From Phycisphaerales bacterium (lineage in GTDB: Bacteria > Planctomycetota > Phycisphaerae > SM23-33): a stretch of 41,441 nt of DNA. The notes beneath the pieces are model-generated. The model saw only the letters and a program-made list of their open reading frames with translations. It had not been told where the DNA came from and ran no database searches. The number at the start of each line of letters is the position of its first letter. Position 1 is the stretch's first letter. Positions 443 through 37,117 of this stretch are shown piece after piece. The position numbers and the translations under genes are program-made. The stretch covers positions 5,207 through 46,647 of the forward strand of contig JABGPZ010000039.1 of assembly GCA_018644725.1 (NCBI GenBank), read 5' to 3'.

Positions 443-857
443 GGTTCCGACTCCATTTCATGGCCAATCTGACCGAGGGGAAACGCAACGATGGCGCTTC
501 ATTCGATCAATATGATTGTGGGGGTATCCCGTTCTTGCCGCAGTCCTTCCGCGACAAGACTCCATAGAGTACACGCGTTTTGTAGAGAGTAAAGCCGGAA
601 ACTTTCTCCCCCTCCCCTCGCCCAGCAAGATAGTTTTTCCCCGCGCAAACAAGGCGGCTGGATGCTTTTTCTCGCGCAGGTTTCTCCTGTCAACACGCGG
701 CCGTTTCCCTGCGCGATTATTTTGTCAACAGGCCGGCAGCGCTGTTGATTCTTTGGCGCGGAGTGGGAAAATTATTTTATTTTTTCGTTTTCAACAGGGC
801 GGCTCCGTAGCGCCTTTCCCCCGTTTCGCCCAGGCCGTCGCGCGAGCGTTTTGCTCG
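443..857. other. Gap between divergent genes; no gene seen
   Basis: No open frame here has a plausible ribosome-binding site or protein-like composition. The stretch must hold the promoter of the leftward gene. Its right half has several TCAACA-type short motifs (about 688, 727, 791) and an AT-rich run near 769-790. TTTTCAACA at 788-796 differs from a relaxed DnaA box at one position, but this is weak on its own. Confidence 0.4.
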
Positions 858-892: not shown

Positions 893-1741
893 ATGAATAC
901 CCCTCCCCTTCAGCCTGACGACCCGCGACTTGTCCGCCTCGGTTCCCTGCGCGATCGCGATCTTCGCCGCGAAGGGCTCCTGGTCGCGGAAGGGCGCTGG
1001 CTGGCCAGGCGATTGCTCGAGTCCTCCGCCGCAGAAGCCGTCGCAATTGTCGCGCCGCGCTTTGCCGACGAATTTGCCCCTTACGCTGACCGAGGTGCGG
1101 AGATTCTTGTCGCGGCCGAGGAGGCTCTTTCGCAGGTCGCAGGGTTTGCGTTCCATCGCGGTGCGCTGGCGGTGGCGCGTCGGCCGGCGCTGGCAACGGT
1201 GGAATCGGTCCTCGCGGATCCGCGGCCTCGCCAAACGGTCGTCGTGTTGCCGGATACCACAAATGTCGAAAATCTCGGCGCGATTTTTCGCTCCGCCGCC
1301 GCGCTGGGTGTCGATACGATTTTTCTCGGCGAACAATGTTGCGACGAATTTTCCCGGCGCACCCTCCGGGTTTCGATGGGCGCGGCATTGCAACTGCGCC
1401 TGGTGCGCAGCGGCAACCTCGCGGCCGACCTTGACGCGCTGCGCGACGCAGGGTTCTCGATCGCCGCGACGGTTCTCGACAGCTCGGCCACGCCGCTGAT
1501 GCAATTTTGCCCGCCAGAAAAAACAGCCCTCCTCTTCGGCTCCGAGGCCGACGGGCTCGCCGAGCACTGGTTCCACGCCGCCGACACGCAACTCACAATT
1601 CCCATGGCCGAGGGGGTCGACTCGCTGAATCTTGCGGCCGCCGCTGCAATCGCTCTCTGGCACGTCCAGCAAAATTCGCTTCACACAGACCCCCCTCGCC
1701 TCTCCAAAGAACCCAAAATTCTGCCCAATCCTCCAAAATAA
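893..1741 (+). CDS. TrmH/SpoU-family RNA 2'-O-methyltransferase
   Basis: This 282-residue protein is a SPOUT methyltransferase that would transfer a methyl group from S-adenosylmethionine to a ribose 2'-OH in rRNA or tRNA. The three SpoU motifs are clear: NVENLGAIFRSAAALG (motif 1, catalytic Asn/Arg), LLFGSEADGL (motif 2) and IPMAEGVDSLNLAAAAAIALW-type motif 3 near residues 240-260, which together form the SAM-binding trefoil knot. About 100 N-terminal residues form a substrate-binding region of the kind seen in RlmB/TsnR relatives. The ATG at 893 is preferred over the upstream one at 851 because the promoter -10 lies immediately before it. Which nucleotide is modified cannot be read from the sequence. 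The C-terminal 20 residues are Pro/Lys-rich and look unstructured. Confidence 0.9.
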   Translation: MNTPPLQPDDPRLVRLGSLRDRDLRREGLLVAEGRWLARRLLESSAAEAVAIVAPRFADEFAPYADRGAEILVAAEEALSQVAGFAFHRGALAVARRPALATVESVLADPRPRQTVVVLPDTTNVENLGAIFRSAAALGVDTIFLGEQCCDEFSRRTLRVSMGAALQLRLVRSGNLAADLDALRDAGFSIAATVLDSSATPLMQFCPPEKTALLFGSEADGLAEHWFHAADTQLTIPMAEGVDSLNLAAAAAIALWHVQQNSLHTDPPRLSKEPKILPNPPK

Positions 1742-2000
1742 AACAAAAAAAACGGGCCCTTTTACTGACACTGCCTTAAAAGTAAGGAATTCTCCGAATT
1801 TCTTGCGGATTCCGGCCCCCTCGCCCGTTTTCGCCCAAACAATCAACAGGGTTTTGGGGAGAACCTGTGGATTTCCTTTCGGTTCCTTGTTGGCGCCCGG
1901 CGGGATTATCGACAGAAAAGAAAGCAAACGTTCGCGATTTTTCGCGCCTGTTCACAACTCACCGCTTTTCCAACAGCCAAACAACCACCCCGCCGACACC

Positions 2001-2009
2001 TTATCCACA
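2001..2009 (+). promoter_or_regulatory. Perfect DnaA box
   Basis: TTATCCACA matches the 9-bp DnaA box consensus exactly. Confidence 0.65.
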
Positions 2010-2114
2010 AACCCAAACGGCCTCTCGCGCCCACAACTGCCCCAGAAGCAAGATGTTGTGTCGCCTCAGAAAACAATCAACAGAACTCACAGGGCCTACC
2101 AATACTGCGACTTG

Positions 2115-2138
2115 TATTCTATATTACTATATAGAATA
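2115..2138. repeat. AT-rich 10-bp inverted repeat between the DnaA boxes
   Basis: Arms TATTCTATAT and ATATAGAATA are perfectly complementary around a 4-nt TACT loop. The element could be a DNA-unwinding element, a cruciform or an operator. The minus strand across it reads as TAG/TAA/TAT triplets, reminiscent of DnaA-trio elements, but the run is too short to be sure. Confidence 0.6.
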
Positions 2139-2224
2139 GAAAGGCCGCCATCACACAAGCCCTTGCAGTTTTCCTCAAAGGCGTGTATTATGGCCTAACT
2201 CATTCAAATGACCGAATCGCCGAT

Positions 2225-2233
2225 TGTGGATAA
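2225..2233 (-). promoter_or_regulatory. Perfect DnaA box, minus orientation
   Basis: TGTGGATAA is the exact reverse complement of the consensus TTATCCACA. It lies 34 bp before the ACT-domain start codon. Confidence 0.65.
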
Positions 2234-2266
2234 CCTGCGGTTCATTTCGCCCTAGAGGAGAAACTT

Positions 2267-2659
2267 ATGCAAATCGAAAAACAATTTTCCATCTTTCTGA
2301 TCAACCGGCCCGGCGTTCTAGCCCATATCACGGGACTTTTGACCGAGAACGGCATCAATGTGCAGGCTCTGTCGCTGAGCGACTCGGGCGAGCATGGCGT
2401 GCTTCGAATTGTTTGCCAAGATGTCGACAAGGCTCGCGCATGTCTCACCGAAGCGCATGACCGCTGGACCGAGACCGATGTGCTGGTCATTCCAATTGAC
2501 AACACCCCTGGCGGGTTTTCCCGTTTGGCTAAAACGCTCACCGATGGTGGCGCGGACATCGCCTATGCCTACTTCAGCGCAGCCGACGATGGCAAAGCCA
2601 CCACGGCCGTGTTCAAAATCAAAGACCTCGAAGCCGCCAAGGCACTTCTCGAAGGATAA
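2267..2659 (+). CDS. Tandem ACT-domain amino-acid-binding protein
   Basis: This 130-residue protein is made almost wholly of two ACT domains (about 1-70 and 72-130). The first opens with the typical ...FLINRPGVLAHITGLLTENGINVQAL pattern (residues 8-33); the second has GGFSRLAKTLTDGGADIAYAY. Stand-alone tandem ACT proteins of this size bind amino acids and are thought to regulate partner enzymes or act as sensors; no catalytic domain is present. A strong GAGGAG sits 6 nt before the ATG. The gene is convergent with leuA across a shared terminator. A role in sensing branched-chain or other amino acids for leuA is plausible but rests only on proximity. Confidence 0.85.
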   Translation: MQIEKQFSIFLINRPGVLAHITGLLTENGINVQALSLSDSGEHGVLRIVCQDVDKARACLTEAHDRWTETDVLVIPIDNTPGGFSRLAKTLTDGGADIAYAYFSAADDGKATTAVFKIKDLEAAKALLEG

Positions 2660-4847: not shown

Positions 4848-6779
4848 ATGTGTGGATTCATCGGAGAATATCGGCTGGACGCAGCGCGCGCGGATCTCGA
4901 CGCGCTATGCATCGCGCGGGAAGCAATTCGACATCGCGGGCCCGATGGCGACGGGGAATTTCTCTCCGCCCAAGGCCGCTGCGCGATCGCGTTTTGCCGG
5001 CTCGCGGTCCAGGATGTCTCTCCCGCTGCCAACATGCCCATGACCGATTCTGACAGCGGCATGACCCTCGCGCTCAATGGCGAAATTTACAATCATCTCG
5101 AGCTGCGAAGTCGCCTCGGCGAAGGGGCGAGTTTTTCCACCCACAGCGACAGCGAATCGCTTTTGGAGCACTTTGTCGCCAACGGCGGCGCAACGGCGGA
5201 CTCGCTCGCAAAGGCCGACGGCATGTTCGCGCTCGCGCTCTATAACGAAAAAGAAGAAAGCTTGACCCTTGCTCGCGACCGAATCGGCCAAAAACCGCTC
5301 TATTATATTGCTAACAAAGAGGTTGTGTATTTTTCGAGCGAAATTAAGGCCCTTCTCGCTCACCCGGCATGTTCGGCCATCAAAGCGGACAAAAAGAACA
5401 TAACTCGATACTTGGCAACTGGTTATATAGAAAACAGCACGGGAAGGACGGCATACGAGTCGATTCGCGCACTTCCTCCCGCGACGATGATTTTTCTTTC
5501 GCCAGGCCGCGTGTTCTGCGAGGAGCGATACTGGGAGATCCCCGCCGCACCGGCCAAACTGGCCCCTGCAGGCCTGCGTGAGAAAGTTGCCGGCCGACTG
5601 GCTGATATCATGCCAGGATATCTTCTATCGGACGTGCCAATCGGAGTCTTTCTGTCCGGCGGGATCGACTCGGCCGTGGTTGCTGCGATGGCCGCCAAGG
5701 CGAACCGGCTGGCCGGGGATGACTCTCCGCGGCTGCGAACCTTCACCGCCTCGTTCGACGATCCGCGCTATGACGAATCCGCCCAGGCGCAAGCGGTGGC
5801 GGACCACCTTGGCACCGATCACACCGTATTGCGTATCGCGCCCCCCTCACCCGAGGAAATCGAGCAGATCCTGCTTCAATACGATCAGCCGTTTGCCGAC
5901 AGCAGCTGTATCCCGACCGCCCAGCTTTGCCGCGCCGCGAGCGAGCATGTGACCGTCGCGCTGGTTGGCGACGGCGGCGATGAGGTGTTTTGCGGGTATG
6001 ACCGCTACCGGGCGATGCGGCTGGGCGAAACGATGACACCGCCGCGATATTTGCTGTTGCGGATCGCGGCTATGCTTGCGAAGGGTGTCGCGCCGCGCAA
6101 CGAGCGAAGCCGCTTGCGGAGATTGATCCGGTTCGCCGATTCGCTCCGCCACACGCCGCCGGAGCAATATTTCCGCCTGCGCAGCCTTGTTGCGCCCGAA
6201 GACCTTTCGCGGCTGATCCCAGCCGACGCGCTGGAGGGCGAAGACGCTGCCTGGGTGGTGGACGAATTTCTGGCCCAATATGACCAGGGCGAGTTCGAGG
6301 ATGAGCCAGCCTATGCCCAGGCGCACGACATTCGGAGCTATCTGCCGGACGACCTGTTGGTGAAAACCGACATTGCATCGATGGCCAGCTCGCTCGAATT
6401 GCGCGCGCCGCTGCTCGACCATAAACTGGTGGAGATGATGTTGGCTTCGCCCATCGAGGCCCGGCTGAGCAAAAAGGCCCGCCGCGGGAAGGTGTTGCTG
6501 CGGGAGCTTTTCGCGGCCGAGCTACCGAAATCTGTGTTCTCCGCGCCGAAGCGTGGCTTTGGCGTGCCGCTGGCGAGCTGGTTTCGCGGCCCGTTGCAGG
6601 AATTCTTGGCCGACACGATCACCTCGCAGGCGTTTCTCGACGCGGGCCTGGTCCAGCCGGAGGCCGTCGCGGGTATGTTAAATGATCACTTTTCAGGCCG
6701 TGCGGACCTGCAGCACCCGTTGTTCGCGACCCTTTCTTTGGCAATCTGGGCAAAAAACCACCCCGAAGCCATTTCGTAG
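4848..6779 (+). CDS. asnB: Asparagine synthase, glutamine-hydrolysing (class II amidotransferase type)
   Basis: The 643-residue protein converts aspartate, glutamine and ATP to asparagine, using ammonia released from glutamine. The start is fixed by the required N-terminal nucleophile Cys2 in MCGFIGEY. The glutaminase domain (about 1-215) shows HRGPDGDG, LNGEIYNH and DRIGQKPLYY. The synthetase domain follows, with the ATP pyrophosphatase loop SGGIDS at Ser270 and the VGDGGDEVFCGYDRY motif. Length matches the long AsnB forms found in many bacteria, where paralogues also occur in surface-polysaccharide loci. The neighbours here (leuA and a long intergenic region) do not suggest a polysaccharide role, so amino-acid biosynthesis is the simpler reading. 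Confidence 0.9.
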   Translation: MCGFIGEYRLDAARADLDALCIAREAIRHRGPDGDGEFLSAQGRCAIAFCRLAVQDVSPAANMPMTDSDSGMTLALNGEIYNHLELRSRLGEGASFSTHSDSESLLEHFVANGGATADSLAKADGMFALALYNEKEESLTLARDRIGQKPLYYIANKEVVYFSSEIKALLAHPACSAIKADKKNITRYLATGYIENSTGRTAYESIRALPPATMIFLSPGRVFCEERYWEIPAAPAKLAPAGLREKVAGRLADIMPGYLLSDVPIGVFLSGGIDSAVVAAMAAKANRLAGDDSPRLRTFTASFDDPRYDESAQAQAVADHLGTDHTVLRIAPPSPEEIEQILLQYDQPFADSSCIPTAQLCRAASEHVTVALVGDGGDEVFCGYDRYRAMRLGETMTPPRYLLLRIAAMLAKGVAPRNERSRLRRLIRFADSLRHTPPEQYFRLRSLVAPEDLSRLIPADALEGEDAAWVVDEFLAQYDQGEFEDEPAYAQAHDIRSYLPDDLLVKTDIASMASSLELRAPLLDHKLVEMMLASPIEARLSKKARRGKVLLRELFAAELPKSVFSAPKRGFGVPLASWFRGPLQEFLADTITSQAFLDAGLVQPEAVAGMLNDHFSGRADLQHPLFATLSLAIWAKNHPEAIS

Positions 6780-6856: not shown

Positions 6857-6872
6857 TGTTCCACGTGGAACA
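6857..6872. promoter_or_regulatory. parS centromere site 1
   Basis: TGTTCCACGTGGAACA is a perfect 16-bp palindrome that matches the bacterial chromosomal parS consensus TGTTNCACGTGNAACA. ParB binds such sites, which cluster around oriC and direct origin segregation and SMC loading. Confidence 0.85.
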
Positions 6873-6996: not shown

Positions 6997-7012
6997 TGTT
7001 CCACGTGGAACA
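6997..7012. promoter_or_regulatory. parS centromere site 2
   Basis: This is an identical 16-bp palindrome, TGTTCCACGTGGAACA, exactly 140 bp after the first copy. A short T/A-rich tract precedes both copies. Two identical perfect sites so close together are very unlikely by chance. Confidence 0.85.
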
Positions 7013-35661: not shown

Positions 35662-36007
35662 CAAGGCCGGATATCACATTGAAAACCACCCCCGCCGGGC
35701 TGACGCTCGATGGGGGTGGTGTTGTGTAGCGGCGCTCGCCAGGCTTTGGGCAACCTGTCCGGCTTCGTGGCTGGCGGCGCGGGCGATTCGCGTCACCTTG
35801 ATTTTGGGCGGCATTGTAGATTTTTTTATAGGGCCGTCGTCGCGGAATTGGCCCTGTATTCAAGGGGTTTACGCGATGGCCCCAGCCGCGGGAAGAAAAA
35901 TGACATCATTTTCATGTTTCTCTCATGCGGGTTTTGATATTGTTGAGAGTGGACCATGGCATAGGGCTGTGGTCTGGCCAGAGGGATTCCCTCTAAGGAG
36001 AGAACTC
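35662..36007. other. Gap with terminator and leader of the charged-protein gene
   Basis: After the hairpin at 35684-35722 no gene is seen. A T-run lies near 35820, and a small AGAGGG/CCCTCT hairpin lies just before the Shine-Dalgarno sequence of the gene at 36008. No clear -35/-10 pair stands out. Confidence 0.4.
35684..35722 (+). terminator. Terminator of the VWA gene
   Basis: Arms CCACCCCC / GGGGGTGG. The 5' arm and loop share ACCCCCGCCGGGC and ACGCTCGA with the uxaC terminator. The following T content is modest, so it may be partly Rho-assisted. Confidence 0.65.
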
Positions 36008-37117
36008 ATGATGAAAATGATGAAACAGTTCGCAATACTCGCAGTCGTCGCCAGCGCGTCGTTGGCAATGGCGGAAGGCCGCGCTCCGGCCAAAGCGGCC
36101 GATGCCCGCCCCGAAGCGACGGTGATGAATCGCGCCTTCACCGGCAAAGGCAAGCTGCGTGACGAATCAACATTGCTGATCCTCACGAAACCGAAGATTC
36201 TGATCAACGAAGAACAGTCGCGCACGGCACCCCCTGCGGCCCGTCGTGGCGATGCCCGCATTGCTCGCCTCGAAGCAACGGTGATGCGCCTGTCGGGCGA
36301 AGTGCGCAGCCTGCGCGCCGAGCTTGCCAAGGTCAAAGCCGCGAAGGCCACCGATCGCGCTCCCCAGCGCGACCACGACCGCAAACCGCCCGCCGCCAAA
36401 GCACCCGCAAAGCGTAGCTACGAGTCGCATCGCGCGGAAATGATGAAACGCATTCAGGAAAAGATGGCCGCACTGAAAAAGGGTCCTTCCCGCGTCCAGG
36501 CCGCCGCAAAGCCCGGTTGCCCCAAGGCCGCCGCGCCAGCCAAGAAGTATGCGCCGGAAACGCTGAAGAAAATGGTGTTGGCCGCCAAGGACAACCCGCG
36601 TGCGTGTGCCCGCGTGATCGCCGCCGCCAAAAAAGACCCCATCCTCGCGAAGAAACTCGGCTGGATGAAAGAACAAATGGCCAAGGGCGCGACGATCACC
36701 CCCCAGCAGGGCGGCCCCAAGTGTGGCTGTGGCAAACCCCAGATGGACCAGCCCCAGCGCCGTCGGCACCATGAAGAAGACGACGAAGACGATGAGCGGG
36801 AACGCCATCGCCGCTGGCACGAAGAAGAAGACGAAGAACGCGAACGCCATCGCCATTGGCATGATGATGACGACGAAGATTGTGATGACGACGATGATGA
36901 CGAACGCGAACACCGCGGCCGTCGCTGGCATGACGATGATGAAGATGACGACGAAGATGACGATGACGACGAAGATTATGATGACGACGATGAACGCCGT
37001 GGCCGTCGCCGTCGTGACCGCGACGACGATGAAGATGAAGAAGACGAAGACGACGAAGACGATGATCACAAGAAGCGCAAGCGCAAAACCAAGCGCGATC
37101 GTCGAAGCCGGAAGTAA
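36008..37117 (+). CDS. Exported protein with an extreme Asp/Glu/His/Arg mixed-charge C-terminus
   Basis: The 369-residue precursor has a Sec signal peptide (ILAVVASASLAMA, cleavage before EG). Residues about 75-110 form a coiled coil (RIARLEATVMRLSGEVRSLRAELAKVKAAK). A basic helical region with cysteines follows (PGCPKAAAP, CGCGKPQMDQ). From about 250 to the end there are repeats of an acidic cluster, then RERHRRWHEEED-type segments, finishing with a Lys/Arg tail. WH-acidic units recur three times. Such tails bind metal ions or form salt-bridged gels or condensates; no catalytic domain is present. AAGGAG lies 7 nt before the ATG. It directly precedes a two-component system whose sensor loop is also mixed-charge, so it may be a ligand or target of that system. 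Confidence 0.75.
   Translation: MMKMMKQFAILAVVASASLAMAEGRAPAKAADARPEATVMNRAFTGKGKLRDESTLLILTKPKILINEEQSRTAPPAARRGDARIARLEATVMRLSGEVRSLRAELAKVKAAKATDRAPQRDHDRKPPAAKAPAKRSYESHRAEMMKRIQEKMAALKKGPSRVQAAAKPGCPKAAAPAKKYAPETLKKMVLAAKDNPRACARVIAAAKKDPILAKKLGWMKEQMAKGATITPQQGGPKCGCGKPQMDQPQRRRHHEEDDEDDERERHRRWHEEEDEERERHRHWHDDDDEDCDDDDDDEREHRGRRWHDDDEDDDEDDDDDEDYDDDDERRGRRRRDRDDDEDEEDEDDEDDDHKKRKRKTKRDRRSRK

Follow-up and report, generated by a model that had tools for sequence, protein, structure and literature searches.

A very probable chromosomal replication origin, apparently detached from dnaA, in a draft Phycisphaerales genome

The classical bacterial origin of replication is the dnaA-oriC-dnaN arrangement of Bacillus subtilis, whereas the oriC of Escherichia coli is not adjacent to dnaA. 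At the level of DNA sequence, a basal unwinding system composed of tandem DnaA boxes, a spacer, and DnaA-trios has been described (PMC6669920, PMC8287927); its minimal set is three consecutive trios, 3'-[G/A]A[T/A]-5', close to a DnaA box (PMC8287927). The literature that we searched held nothing specific on planctomycete replication origins. Here we analyze a 41,441-nucleotide stretch of DNA from a Phycisphaerales bacterium (the window), which comprises bases 5207 to 46647 of a 46.6-kb contig (C25) in a 2.54-Mb draft genome (112 contigs, 95% complete, contamination estimate of 0.52%). In a collection of named genomes, the DnaA1 of this genome finds its closest matches in Phycisphaerales records. 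A sequence-only reading of the window had proposed a candidate oriC, not linked to dnaA, in the intergenic gap between genes for a SpoU-family RNA methyltransferase and an ACT-domain protein (Table 1). Judging from sequence comparison, this gap, possibly together with a second box cluster on the far side of the SpoU gene, is in all likelihood the chromosomal replication origin.

TABLE 1 Features of the candidate origin and its surroundings (window coordinates)
Feature	Position	Strand	Remarks
Second TCAACA-box cluster	687-797		Boxes at 687 (+), 722 (+), 742 (-), and 788 (+); upstream of SpoU
SpoU-family RNA methyltransferase gene	893-1741	+	Pfam PF00588, E value 2.5e-34; sits between the two box clusters
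oriC candidate, main part	1742-2266		Intergenic between SpoU and ACT genes; top box cluster, collinear with relatives
DnaA-like box CAATCAACAG	1840-1849	+	Counterpart 232-236 bp before core in G001, G009, and G029
DnaA-like box AAATCCACAG	1865-1874	-	Convergent with 1840-1849; matched in three relatives at -218 to -223
DnaA box, one mismatch, TTATCGACA	1906-1914	+	
Perfect DnaA box TTATCCACA	2001-2009	+	83 bp before core, as in G001
DnaA-like box CAATCAACAG	2074-2083	+	Abuts core
Conserved core AACTCACAGGGCCTA (consensus AACTSACAGGNCCTA)	2084-2098	+	Single copy in own genome
AT-rich tract with 10-bp inverted repeat, TATTCTATAT-TACT-ATATAGAATA	2115-2138		Candidate unwinding element
Perfect DnaA box TTATCCACA	2225-2233	-	~34 bp before ACT gene
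ACT-domain-pair protein gene	2267-2659	+	Pfam PF19571; right neighbor of the gap
Asparagine synthase gene (asnB)	4857-6779	+	Pfam PF00733
Perfect parS TGTTCCACGTGGAACA	6857-6872	+	
Perfect parS TGTTCCACGTGGAACA	6997-7012	+	

The two perfect, opposed DnaA boxes that the reading had described are present, and its several near-matches were borne out as well. Counting the perfect boxes, the gap holds six sites of a strict box set (TCAACAG, TTATCNACA, and ATCCACAG) within 385 bp, versus 0.115 per 600 bp in 2.3 Mb sampled from the own and related genomes; because the choice of motifs drew in part on the gap itself, such enrichment numbers flatter it, and the independent support comes from comparing the gap with relatives. 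None of 20,000 dinucleotide-preserving shuffles of the gap reached two perfect boxes, and none reached six strict sites (shuffle mean, 0.07). The perfect box TTATCCACA occurs just 10 times in the whole 2.54-Mb genome. When the two gaps flanking SpoU were compared with other sequence of this genome, TCAACAG was the most over-represented 7-mer (5 copies versus 0.074 expected); this box variant had been missed in the sequence-only reading, as had its second cluster, at 687 to 797. The gap is the top-ranked DnaA-box cluster in the approximately 2.3 Mb sampled, the second being intergenic sequence immediately downstream of dnaA1 in a relative (G029), and in a weighted scan the regions downstream of dnaA1 in G029, G001, and G058 rank next after the gap. 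The search for rival clusters covered all matches to TTATCCACA, parS, and the core, approximately 0.3 Mb sampled from the genome's own contigs, and the first 100 of 217 genome-wide TCAACAG copies, among which no other place had three within 1.4 kb.

A comparison of this gap across related genomes, which the reading had suggested as a check, revealed collinearity over approximately 320 bp with the regions downstream of dnaA1 in three members of the same family (G001, G009, and G029). In each, a convergent box pair precedes a conserved core at nearly the same distances (-244/-219 here, -232/-218 in G001, -236/-223 in G029, and -236/-222 in G009); TTATCCACAA lies at -83 from the core both here and in G001, and an AT-rich tract follows the core in the collinear layout. 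The window, G001, and G029 served to define the 15-bp core pattern AACTSACAGGNCCTA, and G009 was found afterwards by the pattern, at the equivalent place relative to dnaA1. Matches occurred in 5 of 60 genomes, one each (a reversed-pattern control gave 2 matches): in the gap, directly downstream of dnaA1 in the three relatives, and in G006, where the match falls inside coding sequence and was discarded as chance. G039, G058, and G047 carry a shorter core downstream of dnaA1, always with the same orientation and never reversed. Against the proposal, many relatives lack such a cluster next to dnaA1 or parS when scanned with these motifs. Because the 320-base layout is common to the gap and the dnaA-adjoining stretch of three relatives, the gap is very probably oriC.

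The core may be read as a degenerate tandem box followed by a GC-rich spacer and a first trio position. To its right is the AT-rich 10-bp inverted repeat noted in the reading, and two of the window's three most AT-rich 24-mer places are at 768 and 2115. The second cluster, which contains the most AT-rich 24-mer of all (768 to 791), may be the left part of a bipartite origin. DnaA-trios in the window form runs of two at most, no more than in shuffles and short of the minimal three; in G001 the run is four trios long.

The genome has only two perfect parS sites, both in the window, and they lie 4.6 kb from the right edge of the gap, in agreement with the earlier claim of less than 5 kb. They follow an asparagine synthase gene, as parS does in six relatives, while in G009 and G029 parS is upstream of parB, 7 to 9 kb from dnaA1. 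Elsewhere in the class, one genome (G055) carries 107 parS-like sites on many contigs, and G046, of the same family as G055, carries 13. Besides the main parB on C45, two adjacent ParB_N-domain matches were found at G000:C22:42865-43666 (L335 and L336).

Arguments from strand and skew within the contig fared less well. The reading had placed the left neighbor of the gap on the minus strand; the adjacent SpoU gene is in fact on the plus strand, and it is the next gene leftward beyond it (2 to 442) that is on the minus strand. The argument from gene strand is therefore weak, and local GC skew tracks transcription direction only: third-position GC skew on the contig follows gene strand, and window or contig skew, dominated by transcription strand, was set aside as uninformative of an origin. 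With 112 contigs, the draft gives no whole-chromosome skew. An N run (a scaffold gap, L006:5107-5206) immediately left of window position 1 falls inside a repetitive Lys/Pro/Val-rich coding region whose continuation in the window is 2 to 442, and a separate coding region (36000 to 37117) terminates in a long low-complexity tail rich in Asp, Glu, and Arg, with strong AT skew. None of the relatives searched has the SpoU-gap-ACT gene order, and SpoU or ACT synteny was rejected as an origin marker because of this absence; in G002, a group of boxes close to SpoU was also rejected, being mostly within coding sequence.

Two complete genomes provide the skew evidence. In G039 (same class, one contig), GC skew is negative before and positive after a switch at 2.16 to 2.22 Mb, and dnaA1 (2218.2 to 2219.5 kb), a shorter core, and dnaN stand in succession at this switch; a degenerate parS lies at 2169 kb, and dnaA2 (1281 kb) falls within the negative arm, away from the switch. 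G039 is the only relative in which a switch was seen at the counterpart of the element in the gap. In G054, a sign change at approximately 3.1 to 3.3 Mb holds the genome's only two perfect parS sites (3188.6 kb). Its dnaA1, at 967 kb, is near the other switch and far from the skew-inferred origin, and dnaA linkage thus varies within the class. At the resolution that 20-kb samples allow, the origin of each genome is marked by parS. The candidate put forward by the reading is supported by conserved collinearity with regions adjacent to dnaA1, by a unique parS pair, and by a skew switch at dnaA1-dnaN or parS in two complete genomes, and it combines boxes beyond chance, an adjoining AT-rich element, an architecture shared with the origins of relatives, and parS proximity.

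Most genomes searched in the class encode two dnaA paralogs. Here, dnaA1 is at C58:22199-23575, 4.8 kb from the right end of that contig; dnaA2 is on C28 (L002:940-2400), dnaN is on C59, and the best ParB match is on C45. C25 itself has no dnaA gene, either in the 7 kb to the left of the gap or in the 39 kb to its right. The claim that the origin is unlinked to dnaA holds insofar as both paralogs are on other contigs, although dnaA1 may yet be linked across contig ends, at a distance of approximately 12 kb at the least; oriC appears detached from dnaA in this draft. Because the same element adjoins dnaA1 in relatives, oriC and dnaA1 would have parted in this lineage, and it is in this direction that we infer the rearrangement.

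That separation might instead be an artefact of assembly, with a genuine oriC that is near dnaA1 after all. Were the right end of C58 to join the left end of C25, some 7 kb from the gap, dnaA1 and oriC would be about 12 kb apart, and the strand-corrected skew of C58 is indeed negative, as expected left of an origin; dnaA1 is also within 9 kb of parS in G009 and G029. The contig ends, however, have no sequence overlap, and oriC would still not be adjacent to dnaA1, unlike in G001, G009, G029, and G039. We consider such a junction unlikely.

Another objection is that the gap is a mere DnaA-regulated promoter or DnaA-titrating cluster and that oriC lies elsewhere, for example, upstream of dnaA2 (C28) or beside dnaA1 (C58). 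Other bacteria are known to have box clusters away from their origins, and both dnaA promoters carry TTATCCACA-like box clusters (L001:915-1010 and L002:2505-2600), the dnaA2 promoter thus having one of its own; these suggest autoregulation or cross-regulation of the two paralogs. Yet neither promoter has the TCAACAG group or the core, whose sole genomic copy is in the window, the dnaA2 locus of G039 is away from the skew switch, and perfect parS sites occur near the gap and nowhere else in the genome, which leaves this explanation very improbable. Least credible is that C25 is a misbinned foreign contig bearing the origin of another organism: the draft has 112 contigs and the SpoU-gap-ACT order is unseen in relatives, but the contamination estimate is 0.52%, the entire bin has one parS locus, the closest matches of the SpoU and ACT proteins are from the same family, and the core, one chance match aside, matches only this family's dnaA1 loci.

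If the gap is the origin, DnaA, most likely the DnaA1 paralog, would bind the TTATCCACA and TCAACAG-type boxes arrayed at 1840 to 2083, and its filament would extend rightward across the core. The AT-rich tract (approximately 2110 to 2145) would then be predicted to open for helicase loading, in the manner of the basal unwinding system, and ParB, bound to the parS pair 4.6 kb farther right, would segregate the origin. In domain IV, DnaA1 retains GRDHTTV; the three copies of DnaA2 examined have NHSSV (own), NHTTV, or HHATV instead of DHTTV, and because this box-reading motif is altered, the box preferences of the two paralogs may differ. A more elaborate scheme, in which a bipartite oriC around the SpoU gene, with two box types (TTATCCACA and TCAACAG) possibly split between the paralogs, moved from dnaA1 as a unit while keeping its layout and its closeness to parS, is speculative and on balance doubtful.

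The lineage-specific signature of TCAACAG and TTATCCACA boxes with a AACTSACAGGNCCTA core helps to locate oriC in drafts, which is useful in a little-studied class with weak GC skew. The locus also offers a case of an origin apparently parted from dnaA with its architecture intact, and the near-universal second dnaA paralog, with its altered motif (few copies examined), makes it a testable matter which DnaA reads which box.

Close counterparts are the origins directly downstream of dnaA1 in G001, G009, and G029, which have in common with the gap approximately 320 bp of collinear sequence, the 15-bp core, and a box pair about 220 to 245 bp before it; the gap differs in having no adjoining dnaA1, and its parS pair follows asnB instead of lying at parB as in G009 and G029. 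The classical dnaA-oriC-dnaN origin, represented by G039, matches the gap in the order and orientation of its DnaA boxes, core, and AT-rich tract, whereas the gap is flanked by SpoU and ACT genes, with dnaA1, dnaA2, and dnaN on other contigs. The oriC of E. coli is likewise separated from dnaA but differs in its neighbors and box types. Although it departs from the basal unwinding system in the absence of three consecutive trios, the gap likewise has tandem box-like sites, a short GC-rich spacer, a first trio GAT, and AT-rich DNA. It is very probably an oriC, familiar in kind but unusual in its surroundings.
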